A stretch of DNA of 64,000 nucleotides, from NCBI GenBank assembly GCA_013368375.1, contig JAACJP010000005.1, forward strand, positions 496,001 through 560,000, given 5' to 3'. This DNA comes from Tricholomella constricta (Eukaryota; Basidiomycota; Agaricomycetes; Agaricales; Lyophyllaceae). Under the pieces are notes generated by a model. The model saw nothing but the letters and a program-made list of their open reading frames with translations, ran no database searches and was not told the origin of the DNA. Below are positions 23,319 to 55,986 of this stretch, piece after piece. Position 1 is the stretch's first letter. Each line of letters opens with the position of its first letter. Both the position numbers and the translations under genes were made by a program.

Positions 23319-23540
23319 TTACCCCCTTCTCAAGCGTCGAGCCACTGAGACGCGGAAAAGGAAATGTTCGAATACGGGGAGTGTGGCGGTTATTCTCCTT
23401 TCTGGGTCGCGCGCGGTCACGTGAGGGGCACGTGTCGGTCTCGGTTGTAGGTCCTTGTGGGTGTTTTTGAGGATCTCGGAGATCGAAAGAGAAAAAACTT
23501 AGGTTGTTTGTTCCTCCTCCATCTTCTCTTCGTCCTGCTC

Positions 23541-25520
23541 ATGTCGTCCTTCAATCTCGATATCGCGGCCCCCGCCTCCGTTGACCCTAGCACGATTTTG
23601 CGCGATTCCGAGTTGGCGCAGCTGTCCGTCGAAGATCGGGCGCGTGTGGCGTTCCTTGGCGTACCCCGACCCGTTTCCCCGACGTCCTCTCTTCCTGGGA
23701 TCGTCACACTTGTCGATGGGAGTGTCGGGGCGGTCCCCGAATCTTCTCCCGCACCTCCCTCCATTCCCGATCATCGGCTGGTCATCCGTCTGCCGGTTCG
23801 ATCTCGACAGATCCGGCGTCCTCGTTCCTCCACTCCAGAGGTTGAGTTCGAACCGGCCAGCGATCCTGTGTCACGTCCGGCGGCGACTTCGTTGTCCTGG
23901 GGGTCCCTTTTGACGGATGAGCTGTTGGCGGAGATCCTGCGTACCGCTGTGCGGGTTCCCCCTTCCTTGGCGTGGTGTGAGACGCATGCACCGGTAAGTG
24001 TTGCCCTTTTTCTGCGATCGATTGTTGATTCCATTTTGGGATCTTCGTTAGTGTGATCGTTGTCGGGAGTGTCGGCTGTCCTGTCGATTTCAGGAGGTCC
24101 GTCTTCGCGGGACCCTGCCCTGTGTCGACTGCCGTGCGGCGCACTCCCTGTGTTCGCTTTCGTTGGAGCATGGCCTAGAAGTGGCCGCTAGGCAGTTGGG
24201 GATTCCCTTGGCGTGGTTGCGCTCTCGTGCGGAAGGCTTTGCTTTCTCTCGCACTGGCGTCGCGATGTCCTTTACCAGTATCCGTCGCGCCTTGCGTTTA
24301 CCGCTCCCCCCTCCTCTTCCTGTTGTTTCCACATCCCCTGAAGGGTCCGGTGCTGTTCCTCCTCCTCGTGTTCCCCCGCCTCGCGCCTTTTTTCGCGGTA
24401 CGCGAGGCCAGGGTCGAAAGTCTGTGCCTGTTGGCCGTAGGGGTGCGTGCTTGTCCGTTCAGGAGGTGCGCTCTTCGCCTATCCCTGGCCCTTCTTCCTC
24501 CTCCTCCCGCGATAGTTCGGTTTCGCTTGTCCCCGTTCGTCGTTCTGGGCCCATTGTGCGCACCGAGTCTCCGGATTCCCCCATCGCCGGCCCTTCGGAG
24601 CCTCTCTTTTTAAAAGGGTCATCCTCCTCAGGCTCTTCTTCACCCGTTTTGCCCTCTTCCCCCCCCGCCATGTTGATTTCGACCCCCCCTGCTGCTCCGG
24701 TTCCCTCCCCTCCCTCGTCTGAGGAGTACCTCCGTCTTCAACGTCTCTATGACCAGGAGGTCGCGCGCGCGCAGGCCCTCTCTGTTCAAGTCGAGCTTCT
24801 CCGGGTCGAGGGTCAACGTGCCAAGTCCCATCTTCGTGGCGTATTGGCCGACTTCACCGATGAACGTGAGCGTTTCCTTCATCTGCAGGCGCAGACTTCG
24901 GAGGTCGTAGACGTCGATCGTGACGCGGAGGTTGAGGATCTTCGGATGGAGGTGTCGGTTCTTCAGGATGAGGTTGCTGGTTTGCAGGGGCACGTTGTCC
25001 ACCTTCAGGAGGTTAGGGATCATTGGCGTGGTCATGCCTTGGACCTCCGTACTCGCGTTGACGGTGAGTTTCGATTCCCTTCATTTTCTCCTTCTTGTTT
25101 CTAAGACTTTTCGTAGCCCTCGACCTTGCGCGTACCGCCTTCGCGTCCGATATGTATATCGCGGATGGTGCTTTGCGTCGCGCCCTCGTCGAGTTGGAGG
25201 CGTCGCCAGTCCGAAGTATCATCGATGGCACCCACAAGATTCTTGAGCGGCACTCGCTCCTGGAGCTGTTCCGCCCCCCCGTCGATCCCGAGTCGCCGTT
25301 TCCCACGTTCGAGCATTTCCTTGCTCTTCATCGCCCTTCTCTTACTCGCGAAGGTGCCTTGGCGGAGTTCGTATCTCAGTCTCAGTTGATCGCCGACGAC
25401 GAGCAGGACATTGCGTCGATGCGTCCCCTGGAGATAGGGTTGGTTGGGGAGGTGGGGGGTGATCGTGAGGGCGGTTCTTCTTCCAGTGCGGGTCCCTCTA
25501 AGCGTCGTCGCATCGAGTAG
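23541..25520 (+). CDS. Antisense accessory gene of element B, Zn2Cys6-like protein
   Basis: Plus-strand gene inside element B, convergent with pol. Three exons: 23541..23993, 24052..25063, 25117..25520, 622 aa, all with GTAAGT/GTGAGT donors and TAG acceptors. Exon 2 opens exactly on the first Cys of C-X2-C-X6-C-X12-C-X2-C-X6-C (Cys 152, 155, 162, 175, 178, 185), the spacing of fungal GAL4-type binuclear zinc clusters. Then come a Ser/Pro-rich linker, a long coiled-coil-like region (EEYLRLQRLYDQEVARAQAL onward) and a basic C-terminus SKRRRIE that could be a nuclear signal. No recognised transposon domain. Two related genes sit at the same place in element C. Function unknown; a nuclear DNA-binding regulator or targeting factor is an inference. 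An E-box-like CACGTG pair lies upstream at 23417-23433. Confidence 0.75.
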
Positions 25521-25550
25521 TCGGTCCCTTCTGCAGCGTCTTGGCCTGCG

Positions 25551-25627
25551 TTTTTTTTTTTTTTTTGCTGAATATTTACAGTCCGGAGTTCGTTCGTTTG
25601 TTTTTTTTTTTTTTTTTTTTTTTTTTT
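25551..25627. repeat. Two poly-T tracts between convergent genes of element B
   Basis: Runs of 16 T (25551-25566) and 27 T (25601-25627) in the 245-bp gap between the stop of the accessory gene and the stop of pol. They may mark the 3' ends of the convergent transcripts; I see no A-tailed retroposed insert. Confidence 0.8.
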
Positions 25628-25764
25628 CTTTTTTTCTTGATATTTTTTCTTTGTGTGATATTGTTGCGCTGGTGGTCGAATACGTATAGTAGAGTTTAGT
25701 CTTGGGAAAATTTGCATAATTTTCGTGATGTGTTGGTGTGCGTGAGTGTTCGTCGAGTGTCTTT

Positions 25765-28700
25765 TTAAATTGTGGGGTCCCGTGGTTTTCTTGGGAATAG
25801 TCGGTGGAATTTAAGGGCCATGTCCTTTGCTCCTTCTATATTCTCCGCTGGTTCCCAGGTATCGTCTTCGGGGCCGTACCCTTCCCATCGTACCAAGTAG
25901 AGGACGTGTTTCCCTCGTGTTCGGGAATCCAGGATCTGTCCCACTTCGTAGTGTTCTTCGCCCTCGACTTCGATCGTCTGCGGAGGTGGTTTTGATCGTC
26001 CGGGGAAATTCTCGTGCTCGTGCTTCTCGAGCAACTTGACGTGGAAGACATTGTGAATCCCTTTCAGTGTCGGAGGTAGTTCCAGTCGATACGCGTGGCT
26101 GGAGATCTTCTGCAGGATTTTGAAGGGGCCCAGTCTCCGGTGGTCCAGCTTTTTGGAGGGGTGTTTCGTTTTGATGTTCCGGCAGTCGAGCCATACTTCC
26201 GTTCCTACGGCCCAGTCTGGTGTAAGGTCCCGTTTCTTATCTGCAAATCGTTTGTAAGCTTCATTTGCGATCTCTATTTCTTTGCGGAGGTAGTCCTGGA
26301 GGGTCCGGAGGTCTACGGCTACCTCCTGGGCTTCTTTCGCCGGTATATCTTTTATAGAGATTGTCAAGCGGGGGTGATAGCCCTTGTTCGCGAAGAAAGG
26401 GGAAACTCCCGTGGTCGAATGGGTCGTATTGTTGTACGTGAATTCCGCCAGAGGGAGCTGAATTCGCCAGTTGGTCTGGAGATAGTTCACGTACATCCGG
26501 AGGTATTGTTCCAGTGTCTGATTTACTCGTTCCGTCTGGCCGTCGGTCTCCGGGTGATACGCGGTCGAGAGGTTTGATTTGATGTCCAGGGCTTTACATA
26601 GCGAGCTCCAGAAACGGGAGACGAAGAGGGTGCCTCTGTCCGATATGATGTCGTCGGGCAGTCCGTGCTTGGAGAAGACATGTTCCAAGAATAATTGAGC
26701 GAGTTCCTTTGCTGTGTCCGTTGTGTGACAGGGTATGAAGATGCCCTGCTTGGTGAGGCGGCATACTACGACTAGTATGGCGTCGTACCCATCCGATTCC
26801 GGTAATTCTACAATGTGGTCCATGGATATGGAGGCCCACGCCCTTCGTCCAATCTGGAGTGGTTTCAATAGTCCGTATGGGCTATGGCGTGGGACCTTCG
26901 CTCTTTTACAGGTATAACAGCTTCGGACGTATCGAGTGACCTCCTTCCTTAATCCGGGCCAGAAATAAGTCCTCATGATGAGTTGTGTGGTCTTTCTGAT
27001 CCCTGGATGTCCGCGCAGTTTGTGGTCGTGATGTTGCTGTAGGATGTCGAGGCGTAATCTGGAATGGTCCGGTACGTAGATTCTTCCGTCGCGAAAGAGT
27101 AGTTTGCCATCCTCGGATAGGGAGAACGCGGAGGTCTCATCTCCGGGTTTGGGTGCGTGTCTCTCGAAGAATTCGTCTCGGGGTGTGTTCCGGATGTTGT
27201 TTAGTAGGAGCTCCTCGTCCAGTATTAGGGCCGCGTTCAATCGTTCGGGAGGTATGATGATGCGGTTGTTGAACGAATTATGATCCTGTTCGAACCCTTT
27301 CTTGGGATACACGTCTGGCCGTCGCGTGAGGGCATCTGGTTTCGCTCCTAATCTTCCGGGTCTGTAGTTTATTTGGAAGTCGAAGTTTGCCAGGCATTCC
27401 GACCATCGTGCTTGTCTGCGACTGAGTTGCTTGGTCGTAGAGAAATACTGTAGGTTATTGTGGTCGGAGTACACTTGAATGCGGTGGGGAGATCCCTCTA
27501 GGTAGGCCCTCCATTGCTTAAACGCTTCCACGATTGCTAGGAGCTCCTTATCATAGATGTCGTAGTTGAGCTCCGCGTCTATCATAGTTCTCGCGTAGAA
27601 GGCGACAGGACGTAAGTCTTGTGATGTCTCGTCAAATTGGGAGATGATCCCCGCTATGGCGAAGTCGGAAGCGTCGCACTCTAATATCACCGGTAGTTGA
27701 GGATCGAAGTGTCGTAGGATGGGTGCGGAGGAGAATGCTTTCTTCAATAGTTCGAAGACTCCTTCGCATTCGGAATCCCATTTCCAGATTGTGTCCTTTT
27801 GCGTGAGTTTGTTTAACCTCTTCGTTATGCCCGAGTAATTGTCGATAAACCGCCGATAGAAGTTTGCAAAGCCTAGGAAAGATTGGAGTTCCTTGACCTT
27901 CGTCGGTCTAGGCCACTTCCGGATCGCGTCGACTTTTCCTGGATCCATCTTTACTCCGCCGGGGGATACGATGACGCCTAGGTATTTGATCTCCGTAGTG
28001 TGAAACGTGCATTTCTCCGGTTTCGCATGAAGGTTGTGTTTCCGGAGCCTCTCGAGGACCTTCCGAACGTGTCCGTGATGTTCCTCTAAGGTCTCCGAGA
28101 AAACCAGAATGTCGTCGAGGTAGATCACTACGAACACGTCGTTCATGTCGTGGAAGATGTCGTTCATGAAGTGTTGGAATGTCGCGGGTGAGTTTGTCAT
28201 GCCGAAAGGCATTACCAGGTATTCGAAAAGTCCATAACGAGTGCGGAAAGCTGTCTTCCATTCGTGTCCCGGAGCTATGCGGACGTTGTTGTAGCCCACT
28301 CGGAGGTCGATCTTCGAGTATACTTTCGCTTTTTGAAGTCGGTCTATGAGGTCTCCGATCAGAGGTAGAGGGTAACGGTTCTTCTTGGTGATCCGATTTA
28401 ATCCTCTATAGTCCACGCATAGCCGGAGTGATCCGTCCTTCTTCTTTGCGAACAGTACCGGAGCTCCCGCTGACGAACTCGAAGGTCGGATGAACCCTTT
28501 TCCGAGCATCTCGTCGATGTAATCCTTCAATGCTTTCAACTCCAGTTCGGACATGTTGTATATCTTTCCGAAGGGAGGGGTAGTGTTTTCGTCGAGTTCC
28601 ACTGTGTGATCGTAGGGTCGGTGTGGGGGGATGGTTTTCGCTTCGCCCGCTGAGAATACGTCTTCGAAGTCCCTGTACTCCGGAGGTACGACTTCCTCGA

Positions 28701-30263
28701 AGATTTCCCTTTCTGTCTTTGGTTGCTTGGGTTCATCGTCGGAGGTGTTATTGGCATGGAGGTGTTCTTCCTTTTCGGTGGGGGAGATGTGTAGTTGGAA
28801 CGCTGTGGCTCCGTCCCTGATGAGGTTCGCGAATGGCGCCGCTCCGATCAGGCGGATGTTTTGTGTTTCGACATCCTCTTCTCCCTCTCCGGTTTCGTCT
28901 TCGGCCTCCGTTTCCGGGTTGGTTTCCTCTTCTTCCTGTGTTTCTGTCGTTGGGGGCGTTGCGGATTTCCGTTTGGGGTGGGGTTTGAATTTGGACCTCG
29001 GAACGTTTGGAGGGAAGTAGTTCGGTGGGGGTGGTTTTCGGGTGCGTTTCCGTCCCGTTATCTCCTCTGGTGACTCGGTTGTCGGTGTTGGTACTTCCTC
29101 TTGGGGTTCGTTGGTGTTTGGGTGAGTGTCTTCCCCCTTCATGTTATCGCTGGAGGTGTCGTTCTGATCGTTGTCGTCGTCCAGGAGGTCCCTGAGGAGG
29201 GGTTGTTTTTCCGAAAGGGGGTTGGCTGGTTTCGGAGCTTCGACGTCTTCCTCCTCCTCAAGGGTCACGGTTCTCCATTGCGTCTTCTGGGAAAGCGATA
29301 TCGCGGCTAGTCCTGCCCCTTGTTCCATGGTCATGGACATTTCCCGCCAGTCGATGTCCGGATTTGCTTCCCGTAACCAAGGTAATCCGAGCACTAGTGG
29401 CGTGGCCGGGTGTAACTGTGTTATGAGGAGGTCGACCTTATACTCTAGTCCGTTCTCAAGTTTGATTGTTTCGGGACTATGGTGTGAAATGGCTCCACCT
29501 CCGCTGGGGTTTCCGTCGAACAGTTGTAGGGTCATGGGGCTGGCGAGAGGTTCCGGTTTCGTGCACGAGGATTGTGATATGAAATTTCCCGCCGCTCCAC
29601 TATCGATAAGTGCCCGTAGTCGCGTTGAGGATCCTTCTAACTGTACTTCGATCGTGAAGGAGCGAGCTGACCGCGAGGGTAAGCGTTGATCTCCTGTGCC
29701 TGTTGTCGTTGGGACGACTTCCTTTTTCCTTCGGAGGTCCGGTAGTGATCCTTCAATTTTGCCGTTTGACCCCCTTTGTAGCGTGATGCAGAGGTCTTTC
29801 CAGTTTATTCGGGGGTTGACCTCCTTCAACCATGATAGTCCCAACACTATCGCAGCTGTCTCGTGCAGTTTCGTAAGGAGGAACCTTATCCTCTGCGTGG
29901 TGCCGTCACTGAATTTGACGTCGTTGGTGGTATAGTGTGTGATTTTGCCCGATGCGGAGAGTTCTCCATCAAATAGGCAAAGGTTTATTGGGGGTTTGAG
30001 CTCCTCAAGGTGGAGCCCGCGTGATGTCGCCATGTCGGAGTCCATGAAGTTGTCGGTAGCTCCGCTGTCGATAAGCGTATTTTCGGGTTTTTCTCCCCCT
30101 CCGTTTGGCGTGAGGTGTATTAAGAATGCCAGGGACGAGTGGGAGGAGAGTGTTACAGTGCGGGTGTCCGTTGTCGATAGTGCCGTTGCGCGTAGTTTAG
30201 TGTCAAGGCCCGGTTTCAGCTCTTCGCGATTCAGAGCCCGGGTAAGTCCTGAATCGCCCCCGC
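25765..30263 (-). CDS. Element B pol: two retropepsins, RT, RNase H, integrase, chromodomain
   Basis: Minus-strand frame read after a -1 shift at 30264-30270; the first ATG inside it is 30045. Two protease domains in tandem, each with its own DSG active site: LIDSGATDNF (about 30080-30050) with VLGLSWL, then LIDSGAAGNF with VLGLPWL. A long acidic linker follows. RT shows RYPLPLIGDL, AFRTRYGLFEYLVMPFGMTN and the YLDD box (VVIYLDDILVF). RNase H has ECDASDFAIAG; integrase has an HHCC finger (HHDHKLRGHPGIRKTTQL..CYTCKRAKV) and DDE residues (SMDHIVEL, SDRGTLFVS, ETDGQTERVNQTLEQYL). The C-terminal chromodomain is YEVGQILDSRTRGKHVLYLV..WEGYGPEDDTWEP. No stop or frameshift seen, so this looks active. 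Confidence 0.93.
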
Positions 30264-33081
30264 GTTTCCCTCTTCTGTCTTGTGATGGAATTCGAAGATG
30301 TCGTCGCCGATGAGGTAGGTGGCTCTGCCCATGGCGTTTGCTGTTGGGCAGTCGCGCATCCAGTGTTCCAGGTCACCGCATGGGATGCAGGCCTTGTCTC
30401 GAATTCGTTGTTGCTTTACGTCTTCATCGATCTTCACCCAGGGGCGCGTTGACTTCTTGAATCCGAAGTTGTTGGCTTGTAGTGCCTCTTCGTCATCCCA
30501 TGCGATTTCTTGGTCTTGCGCCTTACCTTCCTTACCTGAGTCCGGGTCCTGATCGTGACTTTCGGCGTTCAAGTGTGCGTTCCTGTTCCCCTGAGCCGTT
30601 TGTGGCGTCGTGCGGCTTGCGGGTCCGGCCGAAGGTCCCATCGGAGGTCGTGCGGAGGTGTTGGAGGTGTTCGCATTATTCGCCCAGAGGGGTTTGTAGG
30701 ACTCTGGATTTTCTATGCGATGTTCCCAGTACCTCCGGTCGATTTGGGTGACCAGATCTCGGTAACCTTCGTAGGTTTCGGGGCTTGGTGCGATGGCCAG
30801 GACGTTAAGGATTCGTTGGGGGAGCGCTTTCCGGAGTGTGAACTGTAGTGCTACCCAGTTCCAGCCTGTTTCGTACGCTTCTTGTTCGAACTTGATGATG
30901 AATGCTGTGAACTTTTCCCATTCCTTCATTTTCAGTCGCGAAATGTTGTTCTCGGCTTCCACTCTCGAGTTCGGTATTCCGAAGCGTGATCCTAATTCGT
31001 GTACGAATCCTTCCCAATTCGTGAACATTGGGTGTTGGGGGTTGTACGTGAGTTGCAGCCGAAAGTAGTCCATAGCTCCGTCCTTTAAGTAGGAGCTCGC
31101 GAATGACACCTTCAGGTGATCCTGTTCGTAGGTGATCGCCTTGGCTTGAAACGTTACTAGGCATTCCGTGACGAAGGTTTTCCATCTCCTCGGTTCTTTT
31201 CCAGTGAAGGGGTCCGGTTTCCTGATGTCGATTTTCGATTCCAGGTTTAGGAGGTGTCGGTACTGTTCTGGGGTCAGGTTTTGGTTTGGGCCTAAGAGCT
31301 GTTGCGGTGGAGGTGGGGGTCGTTGAGGGTTTGCGAATTGGCCTCCTCCCGGATTTCCGGGTGGGCCTCCTCCTCCTCCTCCTCCGTGGCCTCCTCCTCC
31401 CCCTCCGGGACCTCCGGGGCCTCCCGGGCCTCCTGGTCCTTGTGGTGGTCCGTATCCTCCGTGACCTCCCCCTCCTCCAGGACCTCCTGTTCCTCCGGGG
31501 CCGTTTCCCCAATAACCTCCTCTTCCCCCTCCTGGTCCTCCGGGGCCGTTTCCCCATTGAGTTCCTCTCGGGGTAGGTGGTCCCGAAGATCCCGGAGGTG
31601 GTTGGGGCTGTGGAGGTGGTCTGTTGTACTGGGGGTTCGGTCGTCCGCCGGGTATGGGTGGGGCTGGTCCGGGGTTGTATCCAATTCTGTATTGTTCGAA
31701 CTGGGGGAATTGTTGTTGGGTCCCTTGCCTTCCGTCGAGGATGTTTACGTTTTGACCGGGGCCGGGGTCCGCTCCGATTCCACGTCGTTCTCTTGGGGAG
31801 ATTGGGCGTGGGCCTTGCGGTGACCTCCTGTTCTGATTTGCCAGATGAGGTGGTGTTTGGCGCCAGTCTTCTCGTGCCCTAGGGGGTGCTCCCTCTCTTC
31901 TTTCCGAGTTTTCTTCGCGTAGTTCGTAGCTGTGGGCGTACGACAGTGGCGTTGGGATTCCCCGTTCCGACGGAGGTAGGGGAATGTTCTCAGGTTCCCT
32001 CGGAGGTACTCCTTCTTGGTTTGCGAAGGTCCCCTGTGGGCCCTGAAAACCCGAATTTGGCCTGGAAAACGGTCCTTCGACAGGGGGGTTCTCTTCGGGG
32101 ATGGGCTCCCCAGAACCCGAACGTCGGAGCTCTTCGAGCGTCTGCCCCTGGTGTGACGGTGGGTTCGAACCCTTCTTGGCTGGGGGGAGCGTTCCCTTGG
32201 TTCATCCTCCTGAGTAGAGCTGAAGCTGTCTGCGTATTGACCGTGCTTGTCGCTCGTGGAGGTTCTTCGAATCTAGTTTCGATTCTGGAGGGAACGGGCT
32301 CCTGAATTGGCATGTGGAAGGAACGTCCCGCGCTTTGGGGGTCGGAGAATCTTCTTCCCTCGTTGGACGTCTGGATTTCTCCAGCCAGAGCGCGTAACCT
32401 TCTTTCGTTTCCCCCCATTTGTAGCAACACCGTCAGTTGTGGGGGTAATCGATGGGCTTCGTGCAGTTGCATGGTCGACAACACGAGGTTGGCCCATTGT
32501 TCCGGTGTTCGGGGTTGATGATCCATCCCCATGGTTTCGACTAGGAGCTCGTGCGCTTGTCGTGAAAACTCTTCTCGCGTCATGCGGAGTTCGTAGAGTA
32601 TCCTTTCGTGGTCTGAACCGTGTAGAAAGGGGTTTTGTTGACGAGCGAACTGTCCCTGTCCCTCCTCTCGTGCCCTATCCCTCCTCTGGAACATCTCCGG
32701 GTGCCTCAACCTTTCGTAGTACGATCCGGGAGTCTGGTTACTTGAAAGCGGAGGTCCGGAGGTCGTTGCGGATGGTGGTAAGGGGGGATAGTTGGGGGTG
32801 GCGAGTTGGTAAGAGGGGTTGAATACGTTTGAGGGGGTTCGGGGTAGGGGTCGTCGTGGGTCCTGACTGACTGAGGAAAAATCCCCCTCATGTTGGCCAG
32901 GTTGGAAGATCTGGTGTTCCAACCTGGACCTGTTGGATCCGAAAGTCCCTTGCATCGGAGGTCCTGTTGAGGCAGGGGAGGTTTCGAAGGGTGGTGGTGA
33001 AGGTCTCCTTTGAGTGAAGGAGGGACCTTCGAAGTTTTGATAGCGGATGGTTGTGTTAGGCTCCACTATCGTCGAGGACAT
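30231..33081 (-). CDS. Element B gag
   Basis: Capsid/nucleocapsid protein. The core and the zinc knuckle CIPCGDLEHWMRDC (C-X2-C-X4-H-X4-C) are in the frame that ends at 30231. The N-terminal part begins at ATG 33081 in another frame that stops at 31990; coding character passes from one to the other somewhere between about 32045 and 32200, near a C6 run (GCTCCCCCCAGCC on -). This is probably a one-base indel. Between them is a Gly/Pro-rich stretch (about 31365-31560, GGPGGPGG-type). The capsid-like core is around 31230-30800 (MFTNWEGFVHELGSRFG). Gag binds genomic RNA and builds the virus-like particle. Confidence 0.8.
30264..30270 (-). promoter_or_regulatory. -1 ribosomal frameshift heptamer GGGAAAC, element B gag/pol
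   Basis: In the gag frame the codons are GGA AAC preceded by G, the exact X XXY YYZ pattern, about 33 nt before the gag stop at 30231. Slipping back one base puts ribosomes in the pol frame, which is open from here through both protease domains. Confidence 0.75.
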
Positions 33082-33098
33082 GTCCAGTGGGTGGGAGG

Positions 33099-33110
33099 AC
33101 CTCGATATTA
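33099..33110 (-). promoter_or_regulatory. Self-priming primer-binding site, element B
   Basis: Directly inside the 5' LTR. On - it reads TAATATCGAGGT, complementary to a 12-nt stretch of the same transcript in the LTR (33354-33365 on +). That stretch lies about 35 bp downstream of a minus-strand TATATAT box (33394-33400), so it would be the very 5' end of the RNA. This is the Tf1-type layout. No tRNA-like TGG start is present. Confidence 0.65.
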
Positions 33111-33456
33111 TGTTAGGACCTGTGTAGCACGCCGGTTACAGAGTTATTCTGGAACCACCGAAGCGGACAGGCCTGACGTCCGTCAAGGAAGACGGCCTAC
33201 GAAGGAGTATTCGGAGGTCGTGAGCGTTGACGGAGGTGTTCACCGGGGCTAATTCGAACGAACGAGCTCAAGTGATACGGGTGTGAAGCCAAATAGATTG
33301 AGAGAGAGAGAGAGAAACGAGAACGAGAATCGAGAACTAGTCTTAACAATAGGTAATATCGAGGTAAGGAGTCTGAAAAGAAGTGGTGCCATCATATATA
33401 CGGTGGACGTGCGTGGGAAAGCGTAAGTGATTGCGAGTTTAGGGGTGGTCGTGACA
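33111..33456 (-). repeat. LTR of element B (5' LTR)
   Basis: 346-bp copy serving as promoter on the minus strand, with a TATA box at 33394-33400 and the predicted RNA start near 33365. One base differs from the partner LTR. Confidence 0.95.
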
Positions 33457-34143
33457 GTGTCCATCTTTACTTCTCCTCCTCCCAGGATCAACCCAAGAAA
33501 TTCTACCGAAGTAGTGCTGAAGAAGCACTTCTCTGGTTTTAAGAATAAGTCGTTTGTCAACAGAATCTCCAACACTTCTTCCGTAATTCGCTCGTTCTCC
33601 TCTTTTGTGTCCATGAAGATAAGTATATCGTCTATGTAAACTACTACGTGTCCTTTGTCAATCAAATCCTTAAGTAAACTATTCATCATAGTTTGGAAGG
33701 TAGCGGGTGAGTTGCAAAGTCCAAAATACATAACGAGTGGTTCGAAGGCCCTCCTGTGTGTGGTAAAGGCTGCCTTCCATTCGTCTCCTTCTTTAATACG
33801 TACGTTATTATAGCCCCATCGTAAGTCCATTTTAGTAAAGTATTTCGATTTTCCAGCTTTGTCAATAAGGTCAGATATCATAGGTAATGGATAGTTATTT
33901 CAAATTGTCCCTGTATTTAGATACCGGTAGTCCTGTACCATTTGTTTCTTTCCGTCCTTCTTCGGTACAAAGAACACTGCACTGGTTTGTGGAGACTTGC
34001 TTTCACGTATATATCCTTTTTCCAGTTGATCATTTAGAAAGTCGTCAACCTCCTTCTGTTCTACTGGTGAAAGTGGAATGTTTCGGGCCTCCTTTGGTAT
34101 GAAGTCCGGCTTCAGTTCAATTTCGTGATCCCACTTCTTCCGT
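33457..34143 (-). pseudogene. Element A reverse transcriptase, N-terminal part (broken)
   Basis: The piece of element A pol lying between insertions B and C. It reads [16 protein letters not shown], then an in-frame TGA at 33900-33902 just before [14 protein letters not shown], then [20 protein letters not shown] and the catalytic [11 protein letters not shown]. It runs left into the GTGTC duplication, and the same frame resumes at 22972 downward beyond element B. On the right it ends at the element C insertion point and resumes at 53462 upward. The premature stop inactivates pol. Confidence 0.88.
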
Positions 34144-35187
34144 TGATAGAGCTAGAAGGCCTGTAGGTGCTGTGCACAACAACAAAACAACTAACAACTA
34201 TGGGGGGCGAGAAGTGTTAAAAGTTCCCAAACACGCGAGTGTGCGGGGTTTGTAAGTGTTGTTTGAGGTAGGTAAAAGGTGATCCGACTTGTCAGTAGTC
34301 GAACCGACGGTGATATGACGAAGGCGATGGGGTACGACGTTCCCAGATGGAACGGGTCGGCGACACGACTTTCGATGTCGGTTGCGCGACAACGAGACGA
34401 ACGAGGTTAATACGGAGAACTCACGGGTTCGGGCGACGAATACGAGGTGACAGAGACGGCGGTTACGAGTTTTTACGACGGCGGCGGCGGTTTATACGAT
34501 GGGGACGGAGCAGAGACGACAGAGACGATGGTTTGAGCTATTCACTCTGAGTGTGAGGGAAAATACGGGCTGTAATTCACTGGGGGAAGTAGGTAACACA
34601 TGGGTATGCTTTTATACTATACGACCGACTCGCCTCGCGCGAGCTGGCGAGGCAGGTGTTTTACTGGTTTATTGGGAGAAGCGCCGCCAAGCTTGGTACC
34701 GCGCGATGCTTTTTAGAGAGTGTGGCGCTCTTTGGCTCGGCAAAGGGGCTTTTGATCGGCTCGAGGCGTCGGGTCGGATGTATGATCGGTGGTGGCTTTG
34801 CGATCGGTAGTGGCTCTTGGGTGCGGAACTCCGTGGTACGGCCGGATCCTTCCTGCGACTGGCTGGGCAACGGCGTTTCCTAGGATCATTTCAAATTGGG
34901 TTTGGTTGTCGCCGGGTTGACACCTTGGCATACAAACGTGCGCGGTCGTTGACAGGTTACACGGCGTTCCGTGCTCCGTGCGCCCAGAGAGGAGAACTGG
35001 CGTTTCAAGTTACTTCGTCACTTGGTCGGTGCGTCGGTCATTTGGTCGTATTGTCGGTCGGTCGGTCGTATTGTCAGTCGGTTGGTTTAGCGCTTTGGTC
35101 GCATTCAGGACCGTGTTCGTCGTGGCGCAGCGGTTGATGTCCGTATTATGGGCAGGTTCGGTGTACAGCGCGGGACGGTGCTCATCA
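34144..35187 (-). repeat. LTR of element C (3' LTR)
   Basis: 1044 bp; on - it starts TGATGAGC and ends CTATCA. A minus-strand TATAAAAG box lies at 34608-34617 (+ coordinates). Small plus-strand open frames inside the LTR occur identically in both copies and are not genes. GTCGGTCGGTC-type short repeats lie at about 35050-35085. Confidence 0.93.
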
Positions 35188-35200
35188 TCTCCTCCTTACT
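35188..35200 (-). promoter_or_regulatory. Polypurine tract of element C
   Basis: On - it reads AGTAAGGAGGAGA and abuts the start of the 3' LTR, where plus-strand DNA priming is expected. The same tract with its flank is repeated at about 36845-36857, ahead of the second accessory gene. Confidence 0.7.
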
Positions 35201-35207
35201 TGAAATA

Positions 35208-35225
35208 CCGACTGTCCTCAGTCGG
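35208..35225. promoter_or_regulatory. CCG/CGG palindrome upstream of accessory gene C1
   Basis: CCGACTGTCCTCAGTCGG: 7-bp arms around TCCT, giving everted CCG-N12-CGG half-sites of the type bound by Zn2Cys6 dimers. It lies 123 bp before ATG 35348. An identical site precedes accessory gene C2. A TATATATA box at 35309-35318 lies between it and the start codon. Confidence 0.5.
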
Positions 35226-35347
35226 TCCCGTGCATCGGTCAGGGGGCGTGCGTCTTGGAAAAGAAGGGCAGGGATAGGAGGAGGTGGCGGTGCCGACGTG
35301 CTGGCGACGTATATATATCCAGGTTCTTGTTTGGTTTACCCATCTTT

Positions 35348-36650
35348 ATGTCGAGACCTCCTGTCGATCTTCAGCGTACTCTCCGCTTCTTGGAACGAGA
35401 CTGGGACGAATGGCAATCGCTGGCGGCCGACTCCCCTCGTTACGCGCGCACCCGTGTGTTACAATACTTGTCGGATGGCCTTGAAGTGCTTATGTCGCTG
35501 GTGGCTAGTCCCTGGCGTTGGATGTGGAGCGACGAGGAAGAGGCATTGTCTAACGTATGGTCTACGATCGCGTCCGACCCAGAATGGTCCGAGCGGTTCG
35601 CGGTTCTAGAACCGAGTGTGCGTTCGCTTGCTGGTTATTTGGTTGTTCCTGCGGAGTACTAACGCGCTAGTTGGTAGTCCGATTACCCTCACCGAGAGAC
35701 GGTCGCTCGGGAGCGTATGCACGCCGCCTTTGTTGAAGAAGAGGCAGGGTCTGTCGTTCGGGAGCATTCGTGCGCTTCCCCTGTTAGGGACAGGGACGAA
35801 GAAGAGTCTGTCGTCGAGATCTCCGGGGAGTCGGTATTGGCGGCACAAGGGAGGCGACACCGTTTGTGGCTGGAGCGTCTGGAGGAATTTAAGAAGGAAT
35901 ACCCTGAGCATTACACTCGTAGCGAAGCGGTAAGTCATCGGCCCTCGTGTAGCTTTGTTTTTCTGCTCATTTGTTGGTTAGTGCGATCGTTGCGTGGGCT
36001 ACGCTTTGGACTGCGTTCAGCGTAGCGACGTTGATGCTTGCGCGGTTTGCAAGATTCAATCCCGACCATGCGAGACGAACGAGGTGGGGTCGTTTCGGCC
36101 GGCTCCGCACCAGTTTGTGTCGTGCTCCGTAGAGGAACACTTTTGCGACGCGTGTATGCCCCCTCCGCTGTTCGACGAGGTCCGTTCACCCGATCTGGCG
36201 AGGGTCGCCCAGCGCCTTATCGTGACTCGTTCTGCGGATTCGGTAGACCGGGGTGCGGGTCTCCTATATCAGGGTCCGGTGTTTCCCCCTGAGGACTTCC
36301 TCCGTAACGAAGATTTGCGCGGTTTGGGCTTCACCCAGCCGTTGTCGGTTATTTTGCGGTTCGGTCTTGCAGATGTAGATCGGGCGCTATAGGCACGCAC
36401 TGTTTTCTTGCGTACCTTGGTCCAGGAGATTCAAGTCCTTGAATCGCGCCAAGAGATCGTGCGTTCGTCGGCCCGTCAGCTTTACGAGCAGGTCGTGTCT
36501 ACGTCGTCGGCCCTTGACTTGCTTCAGGTCCGGCGTGCAGAGTTGGTTGGTGCGTCTGCGATGGATAATTCGGGAAGCGGGGGCAGCGGTAGTGGGAGCA
36601 GTGTCGACGGTGGCGTACGCGACAATGGTGGTGAAAGTTCGTCGTCTTGA
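35348..36650 (+). pseudogene. Antisense accessory gene C1, Zn2Cys6-like (premature stop)
   Basis: Plus-strand gene inside element C. Exons 35348..35617, 35678..35929, 35982..36650. The first intron contains a TACTAAC branch site; the second ends exactly before Cys175. The cysteine pattern C-X2-C-X6-C-X8-C-X2-C-X6-C (Cys 175, 178, 185, 194, 197, 204) is that of a GAL4-type zinc cluster. Exon 1 is 90 codons, as in C2, with matching WSDEE..AL..VW residues. Before the cluster is RLEEFKKEYPEHYTRSEAV, shared with C2. After it the frame reads ADVDRAL and then an in-frame TAG (36390-36392), where C2 has a Ser codon; homology to C2 continues past the stop to 36650. The product is probably truncated to about 310 aa. 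Confidence 0.7.
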
Positions 36651-36864
36651 CTTCGGGTTTGTCGTGTTTTGCGGTCGGGTTGCGTTCGTTATCGGTCGCG
36701 TATTCTGTATATACCTGTTTTGTTGTGTGGGCCCTAAAAATTGGGTCGTTCTTTATAATTCGAATTTTTTCGTGTTTCAGGTGGCGCAGGTCGGTTCGTT
36801 GTGTCGGTTGGTGGTGTCGGTTGTCGTTCGGTCTGTAGTTCATGCCTCCTCCTTACTTGAAATG

Positions 36865-36882
36865 CCGACTGTCCTCAGTCGG
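36865..36882. promoter_or_regulatory. CCG/CGG palindrome upstream of accessory gene C2
   Basis: Second copy of CCGACTGTCCTCAGTCGG, 153 bp before ATG 37035, inside a block of about 39 bp shared with 35189-35227 that also includes the purine tract. The block shows the unit of tandem duplication that gave C1 and C2. Confidence 0.5.
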
Positions 36883-37034
36883 TCCAGAGTCCGGGCGAGA
36901 AAATTCTAGAACTGACGCGTGTGTGGCGTGAGATGGCGGTGGCGGTGCAACAGAATTTGACGGCGTGTCGTGGTCATAAGGGTCCTCTGTCTTTCTCGGT
37001 TCCCTCTTCTTTCTCTCCCACACCGTCCGTAGGC

Positions 37035-39154
37035 ATGGATAGCCTTCCTCCCAACTATGCCCTTGTTCTCGAGGACCTGCAGGGCGACTGGGACGACTGG
37101 CGAGCACTGCCTGACGATGCGCCGCGCGAGGCACGCCTTGCCATTCTCGAGGGGCTGTTGCAGGGAATCACGGCGCTGCATGCCCAGGGGGGCGAGGAAC
37201 CGCAATGGACATGGTCTGACGAGGAGTCTGCGCTGCGGACCGTCTGGGCCGTTGTAGCAGGGGATGCGGAGTGGAGAGGGCCGTTTGGTGGTCTGGAGCC
37301 TGAGGTGCGTCGCAGTCTACTGATCCACCTTTTGGGTGGCTCATGGAGTCTTCTTTAGAGCGAAAACGCGCGTCGTCGCCGCGTGCGTCATGCACGCTTG
37401 GGTGCGGCGGCCAATATACGCGCGTCGCAATCGGTGGCGCCCGAGGACCCGTTGGCGTTGACGAATGTGGCGGCCCCACCTATGGGTCCCAGTCTGTCCG
37501 TATGTAGCGCCGAGACGATGGCCGTGTCTGCGACAGCACTGAGATCGGCGGCCCCTACAGCAGAGGCTCCCGCGACGACTGTCAGCGCCGCGCCGCCCGG
37601 TACGACCGTTGGTGACGCCACCCTCCTTCCGGGGCCAGGTGCATCGGAGAGCCACATTGTCAGTACGACTGGTAGGGACACCCAGACCGTGGCGGATTTC
37701 GTGCAGGGGTCGGACGCGGCCAGGGTTGCGGCGATGGCAGAGCGAATGGGGCGGGAAGCTCTGGAGCCGATGCGGGACCCCCTCATGTCGCGTTCTCCTC
37801 CGACGCCCGACGTCGTGGCGCTTGATCAGGAACCCTCCGCGCTGAGCACTGCTTCGGCGCCTGGTAAGGCAAAGGCCAAAACGAAGGCCAAAGTAACGAG
37901 CGTGCACGATCCTGCGTATCGTCCCGTTACGTTGCCTCACATGTCGGTCGGAGGTGGTCGTCCGAACGGCGGTACTACGGGTGAGTTCGGTTCGGGTGCC
38001 ATCTTCAATCCGTCTGATGGGCTGCCCTTAACGTTTTCGGTAGGCAGGTCGCCCGTCGTTTTCGTCGACACGGTGCCAGCGTCCTCTAGCCGCAAGCGGA
38101 AGCGCGCCGTCGACGACGAAGGCGAGGGGTCTGCGAACGAGGTTATAGAAGTGGTGGTCAAGGCGGAGAAGGCGCCTGGAAAGAAGGGGGCCGCGGCGGC
38201 CAAGGTCGGGAAAGCGTCTGGGAAGAAGGGAACGGCGGTGGCCACGAAGCGCGAGCAGACTGCCGCGGCCAGAAAGGCCGCTGCGGATTTCAAGTGGCTG
38301 GAGCGACTGGAGGAATTTAAAGTCGCCCACCCAAACCACTTCGTTCGTGATGAGGCGGTAAGTCATCGTGTGCTTTGTCGGGCCGGTCATATTCTGATAT
38401 CGTCGTAGTGCGACCGCTGCGCAGACGCCAATGTCGACTGTCTCCAGAAGCCTGAAGGCGGAATCTGCGCGCGGTGTAAGATTTTCTCCAAACAGTGTGG
38501 AACTGTGAGGAACAAGCCCGACGCGAAGGTGGCCACAAATTCGCGTCCCCGGAGTCGCCGTCGCGTCGCCTCCAAGTCCGTCGTGGAGGACTCAGAGGAA
38601 GACATAGAGGTCGTGTTGCCGTCCGTCGCGCGTCGCCGAGCGCGCGACCTTACTGCGCCCAGCGACGACGAACTCGGACCAACCGCAGGGGCTTTCAGTC
38701 TGCGTGGTATGCCGTCGAGGAGTCCGCTGGCATGAGTACCTGGTCTGTACACGGTGGCCGGGTACCTCGCGGTACTAGTCTTCCCCACAACCGCGATTTG
38801 TTCGGCTTAGGATACGCCACCGACTTGTCGCGTGTCACCTCCCTCCCCCTGGCGGATGTTGACCGAGCCTTGTCGTCGCGCCACGCGCTGCTGCGGTCGT
38901 TAATCCAGGAGTCACAGGTGTGGGAGGCGCGCCAGGAGATCGCCCGCTGGAGTCTCGTATGGGTGCGTGAACAGTTCGCCGGTACAGCGGGCGCGATCAC
39001 TGCGCTCCGCAGGCGACGGTCCCAGTTGATGCGAGCGGCAGGTGTCGCGTTCTCGGAGAGCGACAGCAATGCGGAGTCGGAGGAAGAAGCGGTGGAGACT
39101 GGGGGTGAGGACGATGAAGGGGAGGAGGGCGGCGACTTGGTGGAAGGGGAGTAG
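37035..39154 (+). CDS. Antisense accessory gene C2, Zn2Cys6-like
   Basis: Paralogue of C1, about 700 residues. Exons 37035..37304 (90 codons), 37359..38357, 38409 onward. Exon 2 is much longer than in C1 because of an Ala/Thr/Pro-rich region and a Lys/Ala-rich basic segment (KKGAAAAKVGKASGKKG) that could hold nuclear signals. The third exon begins on Cys424 of C-X2-C-X6-C-X8-C-X2-C-X6-C (424, 427, 434, 443, 446, 453). After an acidic/basic stretch ending near 38700 the homologous reading moves to another frame (HGGRVPRGTSL.., ADVDRALSSRHALL..) that continues to the stop at 39154. I find no splice pair for this, so a frameshift mutation is likely, unless a small intron was missed. The C-terminus is very acidic. 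Confidence 0.65.
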
Positions 39155-39568: not shown

Positions 39569-40849
39569 TCAGTCTTCGTCGTCGGTGATTGTCGTTGCTT
39601 CCAGTTCTCTGAGTCGCTTGGTGTCTATGTCCAGAGTGCTGTCGGGTAGGAGGATGTTATTTCGCGCGAAGTAGGGAGTGAGTCGGAACGCTGCTACAGG
39701 CCGATGTAAGACGGTGCCATCCAGTTCGCAGAGGATGTAGGCGCCTCCGCGGTTGCGTGAGATCACGACGAGTGGTCCTAGGTATCTAGACCTCATTTTG
39801 CGGTTGAGCGACTTCTCGATTTTCGTGTTGCGCATGAGGATGAGGTCCCCGCGTTTAAAGTTGTAGTCGCGCAAAGTTCTGGCGTGTTTAAGTTCGAAGC
39901 GAATCGCCGCTTGTCGTCGCGCTGCGTATACGTCTGAATGCAGTCGTTCTAGGTCGGTCGCTCGTTTCTGCAGGGCGATCGCGCGACGTGTCAAGAGGTC
40001 GGTGGAGGACAGGATAGAGTCGGGCGGTGGTTGTAGGTACGTGGCTTCGACGATATCGAGTGAGAGAAGGGGTTGGGTTCCTGTCGCGGCGTAATAGGGA
40101 GAGCATCCCATTCGTTTGCGGATCGTGACGCGTTCAGCCCAGAAGACTGAATACGCGGATTGCGACCATTTGCTTTCGTTTCCGTCGGCGGTTTTGAAAA
40201 GGGATTGTCGTACGTCGAAATGGGATCGCTCGACGAGCCCGTTGGCTCTAGAGTTATAGCCCGAGATTCGAATATTGTGTATGTGGTATTTCTTTGTGAG
40301 GTGTTCCGCGGCTTTGATGAAGGCTGGACCGTTGTCGGTTACGATTTCACGTAGTCCGCCCCACCGGCAGACGATGTCTTCGTACATCCATTCGCCGAGG
40401 GTGCGACTGTTTTCCTTTCGGAGCGCGCGCCATTCAGGAAAGTGAATCAAGGAGCAACGACCCTGGACAATGTATTTGAAACCATTCGACGGCGGTAGGT
40501 GCATGGTGTCGATGTACATTTTTGCAAACAGTGGCGCAGGTGTCGCAACGACCGGGGGAATCAGGACCTTGGTCGTTTGCTGGATCTGGCATATGTGACA
40601 TGTCTGTACAAACCACACGACGTCGGCCCGAACATTAGGCCACCAAAAGCGTTCGAGTAGGGTCGCGCGTGTCGCATAGAAGCGCTTGTGTCCGAGGTTG
40701 TCGTGTACCGATCGCAGTATCTCTAATCGCGCGCTGGAGTGGGCGACTAGCTTATGTGTGCCTTGGCTGTCTCTTCTCCAGAGTCGTGTTCCGTCTAAGA
40801 AGAACCCGGTGGCGTATCGAATGAAAGCGGCGTACTGATCGTCGGACAT
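39569..40849 (-). CDS. Element C integrase part of pol
   Basis: C-terminal part of element C pol, cut off from RT/RNase H by element D; the true sequence starts at 40849 in the GACAT duplication (the apparent ORF runs on into the LTR of D). The zinc finger is HDNLGHKRF..FVQTCHICQIQ. The catalytic triad is in KMYIDTMHL, VTDNGPAFIKA and ANGLVERSHFDVRQ. The C-terminal region has KRGDLILMRNTKIEK and YLGPLVVISRNRGGAYIL. There is no chromodomain, unlike A, B and D. No stop codons are seen, so the only lesion is the insertion. Confidence 0.9.
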   Translation of the reverse strand: MSDDQYAAFIRYATGFFLDGTRLWRRDSQGTHKLVAHSSARLEILRSVHDNLGHKRFYATRATLLERFWWPNVRADVVWFVQTCHICQIQQTTKVLIPPVVATPAPLFAKMYIDTMHLPPSNGFKYIVQGRCSLIHFPEWRALRKENSRTLGEWMYEDIVCRWGGLREIVTDNGPAFIKAAEHLTKKYHIHNIRISGYNSRANGLVERSHFDVRQSLFKTADGNESKWSQSAYSVFWAERVTIRKRMGCSPYYAATGTQPLLSLDIVEATYLQPPPDSILSSTDLLTRRAIALQKRATDLERLHSDVYAARRQAAIRFELKHARTLRDYNFKRGDLILMRNTKIEKSLNRKMRSRYLGPLVVISRNRGGAYILCELDGTVLHRPVAAFRLTPYFARNNILLPDSTLDIDTKRLRELEATTITDDED

Positions 40850-41346: not shown

Positions 41347-41348
41347 GC

Positions 41349-41360
41349 AGAATAGAGTAA
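41349..41360 (+). promoter_or_regulatory. Self-priming primer-binding site, element D
   Basis: AGAATAGAGTAA, two bases inside the 5' LTR, is complementary to 41219-41230 of the LTR, which begins 33 bp after the start of the TATA box. The RNA 5' end could therefore fold back and prime reverse transcription, as in Tf1/sushi elements. Confidence 0.65.
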
Positions 41361-41473
41361 CTCTAGAAACCCGACGAAGCCGACCGATCCGCTTCCGCGC
41401 CGAAACACGCGTCTGCTACACGCGACCGTCCAACGCGCGCTCGCCCCGATCGCCCGTCCAGTCCCGTTTCGAG

Positions 41474-46707: not shown

Positions 46708-47204
46708 TGTTAGGGGAACACCTGTTTGGTGATCACGTGACCATCCGATTCCTCGGACGAGCACGTGACCGACCGCTCCCCAGATGATCGCGATCCCGAC
46801 CCCGACGCTCCGCCCCAAGCATCGGTGTACATACTTATAACTTCCTGTCGTTACTTCCCCTTCCAGCGCGCGCCCGATCCCGATTCCCGACATCCCGACG
46901 TCGGTCACCCGACCTCGTGCGCCTGCACCCTGAGCCACGAGGATCGGACAGCGTCGGGAACGTGTACATACACGCGCCGCTGCCCATCCGTTATCATTTA
47001 CGTACCATACACCCCAGAGAGCCGGCCCTCAAGTAGTTACTCGTATATAGTCATCCTCCTGACATGGGGGAATCCTTTACTCTATTCTCATTGGATTCCC
47101 CTCTGCCAGGTAGGTCTACTTACGTTCTCTCTAATCGTACATAATATAACATTGGATTCCCCTCTGCCAGCACGACTAAGCTCTGCGCTGAGGTCGCCCT
47201 AACA
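46708..47204 (+). repeat. LTR of element D (3' LTR)
   Basis: 497 bp, no difference noticed from 40850..41346; followed by GACAT target duplication at 47205-47209. Confidence 0.96.
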
Positions 47205-49651
47205 GACATGCCTTCTGGTCGTTCGAGGTCGGCCAACCATTGTCTAACAGTATCTATGCGTTGGTCTTGGGCCTTAGCGGCGTCGGTTCTGGGCACGTCG
47301 TCGTATGACATGTCGGTCAAATTCGCATTTGGGCCGGTTATTCCTGTATCATCGTCGGTGCGGATTCTGGGTTGTCGTGGGGAGTCGGTTGCGAGTTCGT
47401 GAGTCGTTGGGTCTGGTGGCACCACGTCGGTGTATACGGCTACCATCTCCTCCCTACTTGAGATCTGTGCCATGGCGAAGATCTGTCGAACATGCAAGGG
47501 CGACGGCGGTTGCGGCAGTGGTTGGATAATGTGCATGAGGCCTTGCATCCGATCGACCCAATCCTCAAAGTCGGCTTCTTCTGCGTCATAGTTGTCGGGC
47601 GGGTCGTCGGGTTGACGAGGGCGACGAGATAATCCGTCGGGTCCGTGGAACATTCCTTTAACGTGGACGAGCTCGAAGTGGAACATGAGGACGGACACGA
47701 TCCACCTGTTTATGGAAGCTGATGGTTGGATATCGGGGTTGGAGAGCATGCCTTTAATGTAGCGCGCGTCGACTTCGACGACTAGGTTGCGGACGCCTAT
47801 AACGTACAGTCGCAAAGCGCCAAGCGCCCGAAATAGGCCGTAAAATTCGAGTTTTGGTTGAGAGAATCGTGATTCGCGGTCGTTCAGTGTAATGGAACCG
47901 AACCGATTGTATCTGCGTCGTTTCTGATCGACGGGGTCGGCTTGACAGAGGTAGAATCCGACTGCGATGTGGGAAGTGTCGACGGCCAGGATGACGGGGT
48001 CGTCCGAGGCGTAGTCGATAGGTACGAGGGGTTTCGCTTCTGCGATCGCCTCAACGATGTCACGTTGCGCTGCGATCTGGTCGGGGCCGAACTCGAAGAC
48101 GGCATCCTTGCGGGTTAGTTTGACGAGGTGGTGTGCGCGATGAGCAAAGTTTTTGACGAATATCCTTAGTACTCCGACCGTTCCTAAGAACGCGCGTAAC
48201 TCCGATAGGGTGGCGCACGACTTCCAATTACGCAGTAAAGCAAGTCGGTCTGCGTCGGGTATGCGACCATTGGGCGTGCAGACGTGCCCAAGGACTTTAA
48301 ATTGCGGGGCGCATAAAACTAGCTTCTTGCCAGAGAAGGTGCCGCCGCAGTACTTCATGCGCTGAAGGATTCGGTTGACGTCGTTGAAGAATTCCCAGAT
48401 CGCGAATCGCACGTCGGCATTGGCGGGGTGTGTTTTCGGTAATCCTGTGTCCGGGTCGGGGTACCAAGTTGCTGGTCCCTTTATAGCAGCGTCATCGATA
48501 TAAGGCAGTGTATAGTCCGGGATCTCCGGTTGCAGGATGTGAGTGACGTCGTCGTGGAAGATTGGGACGGAGTTGGTCCAGCCCATAGGTAAGGTGACTA
48601 GGCGTAACGCGCCGAAAGGTGTTTGGAAAGTGGTAAGGTCGCGCGACGATGGTGCGATTAGCCGTTCGTCGTAGCCGACAAACAGGTCTAACATTGCGCC
48701 ACAAATGCGACCGGCGAATTGTTCAGCTACATGGTCTGGTATCGGAGTGACACCGGAGTGTCGGATGGTTACACGGTTGAGTGGTTCCAGGCTGTGGACG
48801 AGGCGGAACTTGCCATTCTTTTTCAGAGTGCAAAACCAACGTGACCGGTAGCTGGAGTTGGACGGTTCGTAAACGCCAGCGGCGAGCTTAGTTTTGATAA
48901 TGTCGCAAACTTCTTCGTAGATGCCAGGTGGTATGGGGATATTGCGCTCGATCCAAGGCGTGTGCGCCACAACCGGTATGTCGATGGGGGGAAAGAAATC
49001 CGACCGAAAACTACCGCGCTCGGAATCGTCCCATGCGAACGCGAGGTTCTGTTTACACATGAGGTCGTGCATAATGGCGCGTTCGGCGGGTGTTAGGAAG
49101 TCCGGGTGTTCGCGGTCTAGGTCTTCCTTTCGTTCTAGGGTGTAGCGGCCTGTGGGTTGAAAAGGTGGCGGGTTGGGAACCAAGGTCGGCATGTTGGCGA
49201 GAGGATCGCCTAATATTTTGTGTTCGATTCGGAAGTGGTCGGGACAGCTTGCTACGATCGATCGCACTTTTTGCGCTACTGGTTTGTACTTCTTTTTGGT
49301 TTGTATGCCTTTAATTTTCACAACGAAGGCGTCGGTGGCGGCGTTGGTCAGGGATTGGGTGTGGCGTCCACTATGGCGCTCGTGGTTCGGTAAAATAGTG
49401 CAGAGGGTCGTTCGTTCAAGAGGGGTAGAGCTGGTATTAACGGATTGGTCGGCGATTGCTGGTGTGGTTAGTTCGGATGCCGCGACGTAGAGTGAGGCTA
49501 GTTGCGCGTCGTAGGTGGCGTCGCTATTAAATTCGGTCGGTAGTTCGCAGAAAGAAAGGACAGTCGGGGTATAGCTTAGTGGGTCGTACTCGAGGAGGAG
49601 TGCAAGATCGCCGTGATCTCGACTTATTTCCTCGAGAGTATACAAAAATTT
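47205..49651 (-). CDS. Element C pol, RT and RNase H part
   Basis: Minus-strand frame entered by a -1 shift at 49645-49651; first start-like codon at 49645 (TTG). N-terminal linker, then RT: SYRSRWFCTLKKNGKFRLVH, GYDERLIAPSSRDLTTFQTP, LVTLPMGWTNSVPIFHDDV and the catalytic YIDDAAI. RNase H: VILAVDTSHIAVGFYL, SQPKLEFYGLFRAL. After LSRRPRQ the frame runs to the element D insertion (47205-47209) and resumes at 40849. Its RT is quite different from those of A, B and D (YIDDAAI rather than YxDDILI/V), marking a separate lineage. Confidence 0.9.
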
Positions 49652-52353: not shown

Positions 52354-52392
52354 GAGGAATGAGGTTGCGTGTTCGGCGGTGGCTTTTTAAAA

Positions 52393-52410: not shown

Positions 52411-52413
52411 GAA

Positions 52414-55981: not shown

Positions 55982-55986
55982 ATGAC

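Follow-up and report, generated by a model that had tools for sequence, protein, structure and literature searches.

How can genes with introns persist in elements that are copied through RNA, and what would such genes do there? This question is raised by two Ty3-type long terminal repeat (LTR) retrotransposons, B and C, in a 64 kb stretch (the window) of the genome of the mushroom Tricholomella constricta (Agaricales, Lyophyllaceae; 44 Mb in 118 contigs). Between pol and the 3' LTR both elements carry multi-exon genes that face pol, one antisense gene in B and two in tandem in C (C1 and C2). Introns would survive at this place because the genes are antisense: in the sense RNA their splice sites are reversed and nothing would be removed, and antisense placement may be a way for intron-bearing genes to last in RNA-copied elements. 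On balance we favor the reading that in both lineages these are accessory genes maintained by selection, the product of which would be a nuclear zinc-cluster and coiled-coil regulator of the element. Additional antisense open reading frames (ORFs) are a known kind of retrotransposon gene; what appears to be new here is the putative zinc-cluster domain, which we have not found described in such genes.

A preliminary description, made from the letters of the window, had placed three plus-strand genes between pol and the 3' LTR of two minus-strand elements, and this is borne out by LTR pairs and target-site duplications (TSDs) (Table 1). The pol genes of the two elements are indeed very different (24% identity over 432 amino acids). 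As had also been noticed, in each of the three genes a phase-0 intron (23994-24051 in B, 35930-35981 in C1, and 38358-38408 in C2) ends directly before the first cysteine of a six-cysteine motif. The genes are multi-exon as described, with these cluster introns, but the exon structure was incomplete, since each gene has one further intron that had not been listed (25064-25116 in B, 35618-35677 in C1, and 37305-37358 in C2). The pattern C-X2-C-X6-C-X(5-12)-C-X2-C-X6-C without stop codons occurs three times in the six frames of the window, and the three occurrences are those of B, C1, and C2, with middle spacers of X12, X8, and X9, respectively. Among loci collected by protein similarity, where the best-scoring rows came first and good copies are thereby favored, all 30 B loci and all 22 C2 loci have the motif with an AG immediately before it, the B (L017) and C2 (L039) copies of the window being among them; one of the 30 B loci has a stop inside the motif. 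When loci were taken by place, motif and acceptor were found in seven of eight, and both are likewise present in a further gene type, F (L081). Another 15 motif rows were chosen by the pattern itself, so that their invariant cysteines are partly a matter of choice and the recount by locus is the fairer measure. As a control, one of five host motifs (L001) has an apparent acceptor, which lies two bases before the first cysteine and in another phase. The predicted splicing of the antisense genes is supported by the conserved splice sites, and the splice pattern of the B gene is matched by an annotated T. constricta protein, P0002 (623 amino acids, 78%), which is a prediction too. The exception among the loci taken by place is the B-type copy L074 (G000:C34:455450-458450), the antisense gene of which is without the zinc-cluster part, possibly a non-binding form or plain decay. 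A separate public T. constricta protein, P0001, consists of a Ty1/copia reverse transcriptase (RT) piece joined to a B-type antisense gene product and is probably a gene-prediction artefact.

A genome-wide search for copies that lie antisense beside a 3' LTR had been proposed as a check, and its outcome agrees with the proposal in both lineages. The B protein gave at least 105 rows, of which 71 were retained, most exon-1-only and exon-3-only rows being left out and a few of the 71 being pieces of a single copy; 69 of the 71 lie downstream of a B-type pol on the opposite strand, and the remaining two are at contig ends. Viewed from pol, 100 of 142 rows for the C-terminus of B-type pol were used, after A- and D-like rows (44-46% identical) and short fragments had been dropped. 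The gene was matched 217-1189 bases away in 68 of these 100 and on the same strand in none; a sample of four from the 32 rows without a match showed that all four carry the gene, L074 again without the zinc-cluster part. LTR B is present in 29 of the 30 B loci (absent in L027). For the C lineage, 78 of 98 integrase rows were used (10 fragments were dropped and 10 distant rows tested apart). Among the matches listed, with some second fragments left out, at least 74 of the 78 have a gene within 1.5 kb and at least 54 have a further gene at 1.5-5.5 kb, with one such match on the same strand. Beside the 10 distant integrases (37-51% identical) no gene was found with an E-type query (E being a further gene type) among the matches listed, the sequence next to them not having been read. 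Like ORFs of the aORF-3R class, the genes are antisense, lie between pol and the 3' LTR, and occur in most copies of the family.

Between subfamilies the antisense-gene protein is under purifying selection, as follows from ratios of nonsynonymous to synonymous divergence (dN/dS) of 0.09-0.50, another proposed check with a favorable outcome, and from an excess of changes at third codon positions. Calculated by NG86, dN/dS is 0.23-0.36 for B exon 2, 0.20-0.48 for C1 exon 3 (up to 0.62 by YN00), 0.15 for E exon 3, and 0.09-0.50 for C2-type exon 3, where dS is saturated in distant pairs, three pairs are without a value and L042 is out of frame near the end; among L057, L050, L040, L043, and L045 the range is 0.10-0.17. 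Near-identical B copies gave 0.74-1.12 on a handful of changes. Third-position changes exceed those at first and second positions in six of six comparisons (25, 21, and 98, for example), with the weakest excess in C1 (29, 33, and 48).

The regions upstream of the genes contain candidate control sequences. In B, the region between the 3' LTR and the ATG is a putative promoter with two CACGTG boxes, both of which are present in 25 of the 28 B loci counted (L027 and L034 were left out). In the C lineage, a motif CTCCTCCTTACTTGAA-TGC-GACTGTCCTCAGTC is located 146-189 bases 5' of the ATG in C1-, C2-, and E-type genes, and a 70-base query with this upstream motif gave 40 scored matches among 133 candidates. 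The C1 motif adjoins the 3' LTR and has a purine-rich run on the sense strand; this run may be the polypurine tract, and hence two functions are possible for the motif. The second copy, before C2, lies 1.7 kb inside the element, and a promoter role is therefore likelier there. A CGG-type dyad was considered as the binding site and rejected, because E copies of the C motif have lost its CCG-N12-CGG ends, and no GAL4-type site is claimed.

Zinc clusters of fungal Zn2Cys6 factors have the spacing C-X2-C-X6-C-X(5-12)-C-X2-C-X(6-8)-C, with basic residues expected between the second and third cysteines and a dimerising coiled coil after the cluster. The spacing is found in types B, C1, C2, E, L070/L072, and F. 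A basic loop between the second and third cysteines is present in most B copies; it reads CDRCRECRLSC in the window and CDRCRERRLSC in most near-identical copies, while C2 and E types have basic residues in the second CX6C loop. In a comparison of shallow, 43-column profiles with four host clusters, B reached 82% probability and the C/E types 15%. The UniRef name of P0002 is 'Zn(2)-C6 fungal-type domain'. Some 110 residues beyond the cluster, AlphaFold gave a long and confident C-terminal helix for C-type exon 3 (147-210, block means of 81-97 in the predicted local distance difference test, pLDDT); weak coiled-coil-type Pfam rows were obtained for B. Basic stretches, RKRKR in C2 and KRRRIE in B, suggest nuclear import. 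The claim that all three genes encode Zn2Cys6 DNA binders is not supported in that form: resemblance of the B motif to Zn2Cys6 is supported, whereas the C and E types stay at Pfam noise level and at 15% in the profile comparison. Pfam scans of the antisense genes returned no further transcription-factor domain and an NCBIfam scan no useful match. A host sequence, L004:1504-1909, has two six-cysteine motifs side by side, the second with a longer spacer.

Several results weigh against a zinc-cluster regulator. In the profile search that had been proposed, none of the tested types reaches the Pfam Zn_clus (PF00172) cut-off of 21 bits: the best B-type scores are 15.5-15.6 bits (E 0.018-0.019; P0002, 15.5 bits, E 0.019), the window B copy itself has no Zn_clus row in the Pfam scan, and the C1, C2, and E types score at most 8.3 bits or give no row, which is noise. 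C1 and C2, as well as L070/L072, are without a basic first loop. Structure prediction, which had also been proposed, gave no confident zinc fold: AlphaFold modeled the B cluster poorly (mean pLDDT 60.8), and C exon 3 has a mean of 55.6 with a cluster that is not confidently folded. Comparison of the zinc-cluster profiles with solved structures yielded no significant match (Pho7, E 1.4 over 13 positions). At 84-91% identity between copies, the B upstream region as a whole does not clearly exceed the intron (74-90%) in conservation. LTR and gene divergence in B are not in step (L019, LTR 86% and gene 98%; L036, LTR 96% and gene 78%), and simple gene-LTR co-evolution is not favored. Finally, of the three copies in the window the B copy, with its 622 codons, is the sole intact one; C1 and C2 each have a broken last exon. 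The C2-type copies L040, L043, L050, and L057 are open through the last exon (247-248 codons); an extra intron as the cause of the broken C2 frame in the window was rejected, since the sole candidate tried failed and the other copies are open without an intron. Compared with GAL4-type factors, the likeness thus consists of the cysteine spacing and, in B, the basic first loop, and besides the low scores and the first loops of C1 and C2, the encoding by a mobile element sets these genes apart.

Antisense genes of related kinds are on record. In fungi there is brtn, which Zhao et al. reportedly described in 2011. It is an additional antisense gene in the Boty/BcGypsy1 element of Botrytis, cited in the accessible parts of PMC8365987 and PMC4227169; like B, Boty is described as a fungal chromodomain-bearing Gypsy element with such a gene, and it differs in its ascomycete host. 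Retand-lineage Ty3/Gypsy elements of plants have antisense TRP28 (PF04195) ORFs (excerpts of PMC11963269), whereas the fungal genes are marked by the six cysteines and by conserved introns and occur as a tandem pair in the C lineage. In Pfam scans of the antisense genes PF04195 gave no row up to E 10. HBZ of human T-cell leukemia virus type 1 (HTLV-1) has, to our knowledge, no zinc cluster. Like the proposed product, it is described in the same excerpts as a nuclear protein, encoded antisense, that regulates an LTR element, in this case an infectious retrovirus (PMC11963269). The antisense ORFs of maize Grande (gene23) and rice RIRE2 occupy a matching place, and for Grande a promoter upstream of the gene and nuclear location of the product were reported; these are plant elements, the proteins of which have no clear similarity to known ones according to the portions available of a review that calls the functions of antisense LTR-element genes in plants unknown (PMC7264820). 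The earlier remark that no described mobile element with such a zinc-cluster gene was known agrees with our search, in which none was found among titles and abstract starts, with few subscription papers covered; the available part of a paper on Laccaria transposable elements makes no mention of antisense, of an opposite or reverse orientation, of additional ORFs, of zinc or of transcription factors (PMC3411680). Protein-database searches, in which shared five-residue words were required, scored about 8000 candidates, those with the most words in common (1261 for residues 100-240 of P0002, with E up to 1), and found no relatives outside T. constricta, the three proteins returned all being from this species.

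C1 and C2 are paralogues with 40% identity. Elements of the C lineage that are alike in pol seem to have exchanged their second gene. The integrase of window C is 88-95% identical to those of L077, L078, and L079 (dS 0.45-0.94), whereas the position-2 gene shares 40-43% identity with its counterparts in those elements (dS about 1.6-2.2). L043 stands in for the C2 type in this comparison, the window copy being broken; the integrases of L043 and window C are 97% identical. A control within one gene type (E-type L069/L071) gave a gene dS of 0.98 and an integrase dS of 1.17, and for C1-type genes the values, 0.35 and 0.46, agree as well, which limits the exchange in the C lineage to the second gene. 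The integrase dS of L080 is 1.12. In two B pairs pol dS is 0.18-0.22 and gene dS 0.53-0.82, and in the pair with L018 the order is reversed (0.43 vs. 0.27). Fast change alone appears a less likely cause of such unequal dS of gene and pol than recombination.

In the mechanism that we favor, the gene would be transcribed from its own upstream region, and its product would bind two zinc ions, dimerise through the coiled coil, enter the nucleus via the basic stretches, and bind element DNA or chromatin, so as to regulate transcription and copy number of the element. A zinc cluster with a coiled coil would also suit a factor that directs insertion by attaching to chromatin or to the pre-integration complex. 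The C lineage, without a chromodomain match, might need such a tether, and B and C are both inserted within A, but B keeps the gene despite the chromodomain on its integrase, and we consider integration targeting unlikely. The divergence of the genes would be expected of a factor that blocks host silencing and diversifies in an arms race: in three element pairs dN is 0.085-0.254 for the B gene and 0.011-0.058 for pol, and the position-2 genes of C are far less alike than the integrases. However, dN/dS is well under 1, dS differs along with protein identity, more in keeping with an exchange of old modules than with fast change in place, and the L018 pair has the reversed order of dS, so that counter-silencing is somewhat more doubtful still.

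A further possibility is that the antisense transcript itself acts, through double-stranded RNA or interference with gag-pol RNA, and that the reading frame plays no part. For plants, an inhibitory role of antisense LTR-element transcripts is discussed (accessible portions of PMC7264820), but the third-position excess, dN/dS below 0.5, and the conservation of splice sites and cysteines indicate selection on the protein and make an RNA-only role very improbable. That the genes are captured host transcription-factor genes, carried along as decaying passengers, would accord with the broken window copies and with the resemblance of the B cluster to host clusters; it is hardly credible given that they lie beside nearly all copies looked at in both lineages, that dN/dS is well below 1 between subfamilies and that the tandem pair is retained in the C lineage. 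Selected accessory genes for a regulator of the element remain our preferred reading, and with any of the functional readings it is compatible that B and C captured their genes independently, with convergence in zinc cluster and intron position, an origin the odds of which we tentatively put a little short of even. Outside the motif no similarity is detectable between the B gene and the C2/E type (full-length profile comparison, probability 7%; motif-only comparison of B and C, 14%), and host zinc clusters are many (22 rows), with L001 as a case of a near acceptor in another phase; on the other hand, B and C share strand, place and the phase-0 intron exactly before the first cysteine, and the coiled-coil indications in both lineages also argue for common descent. 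A bolder proposal, rather unlikely as a whole, is that retrotransposons carry a family of zinc-cluster regulators in which gene and upstream cis element together pass, as a module, from one element of the genome to another. With versions that differ, an element could govern its own copies and escape control by its neighbors, much as in phages with swapped immunity regions. The loop that reads DNA would, in some members of the C lineage, have shifted from the first half of the cluster to the second.

Because these fungal genes encode a recognisable metal-binding motif, have open copies and show selection that can be measured, the role of antisense accessory genes becomes testable. P0002 is a transposon gene annotated as a 'Zn(2)-C6 domain' protein, and other fungal proteins with this annotation may be of the same kind, which would affect transcription-factor counts in mushroom genomes.

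Table 1. Antisense genes, their upstream regions and the carrier elements in the window (positions within the 64 kb).
Feature	Position	Strand	Remarks
B gene exon 1	23541..23993	+	
B gene exon 2	24052..25063	+	starts at first zinc-cluster Cys: CDRCRECRLSC-X12-CVDCRAAHSLC
B gene exon 3	25117..25520	+	ends KRRRIE-stop
B upstream region, 3' LTR to ATG	23319..23540	+	two CACGTG boxes, 23418-23423 and 23429-23434
C1 gene exon 1	35348..35617	+	
C1 gene exon 2	35678..35929	+	
C1 gene exon 3	35982..36650	+	zinc cluster CDRCVGYALDC-X8-CAVCKIQSRPC; in-frame stop in window copy
C2 gene exon 1	37035..37304	+	
C2 gene exon 2	37359..38357	+	includes RKRKR
C2 gene exon 3	38409..39154	+	zinc cluster CDRCADANVDC-X9-CARCKIFSKQC; frame broken past cluster in window copy
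Conserved motif upstream of C1	35189..35225	+	inner edge of 3' LTR
Second motif copy, before C2	36846..36882	+	
LTR element A	19948-55981	-	LTRs 99.2% identical; TSD ATGAC; chromodomain match
LTR element B, Ty3-type chromovirus	22973-33456	-	LTRs 22973-23318 and 33111-33456, 345/346 bases identical; TSD GTGTC
B pol	25768..30372	-	protease (PR), RT, RNase H, integrase (IN), chromodomain; Pfam domain matches
B gag	30234..32201	-	weak capsid-like and CCHC matches
LTR element C, Ty3-type	34144-53457	-	LTRs 34144-35187 and 52414-53457, 99.6%; TSD CCGT
C integrase	39572..40849	-	3' part of C pol, left of D insertion
C gag/protease and RT/RNase H part	47123..52386	-	right of D insertion; two overlapping frames
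LTR element D	40850-47205	+	within pol of C; TSD ACAT; LTRs identical

The window holds four nested LTR elements, as judged by LTR pairs and matching TSDs: A encloses B and C, and C encloses D. B and C are recent insertions because their LTR pairs are 99.6-99.7% identical, and D is the youngest by this measure because its LTRs are identical. The carriers have the LTR pair, the 4-5 bp TSD and the PR-RT-RNase H-IN set of Ty3/Gypsy elements. Pfam matches to the chromodomain were obtained in A, B, and D and none in the frames of C that were scanned; C has protease and RNase H matches and an integrase separated by the D insertion, and its RT gave no Pfam row, yet the region aligns with B pol. Identity of pol is 45% between B and D and 53% between A and D. 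The gap between pol and the 3' LTR is about 250 bases in A and absent in D, which leaves these two elements no room for an antisense gene. Related C-rich repeats flank the nest on both sides (2828-3103 and 62706-63139). To the right of A, a Helitron-like element (55986-61958) has DUF6570 and Helitron_like_N in one frame and a PIF1 helicase in the next. A host 1,3-beta-glucan synthase gene with FKS1 second domain and Glucan_synthase matches lies near the elements at 8138-11092, and two similar neighboring genes (14060-15030 and 16544-17498) are 80-89% identical in pieces. From the look of their short exons, two short pieces of which gave no Pfam match, this pair may encode thaumatin-like proteins.

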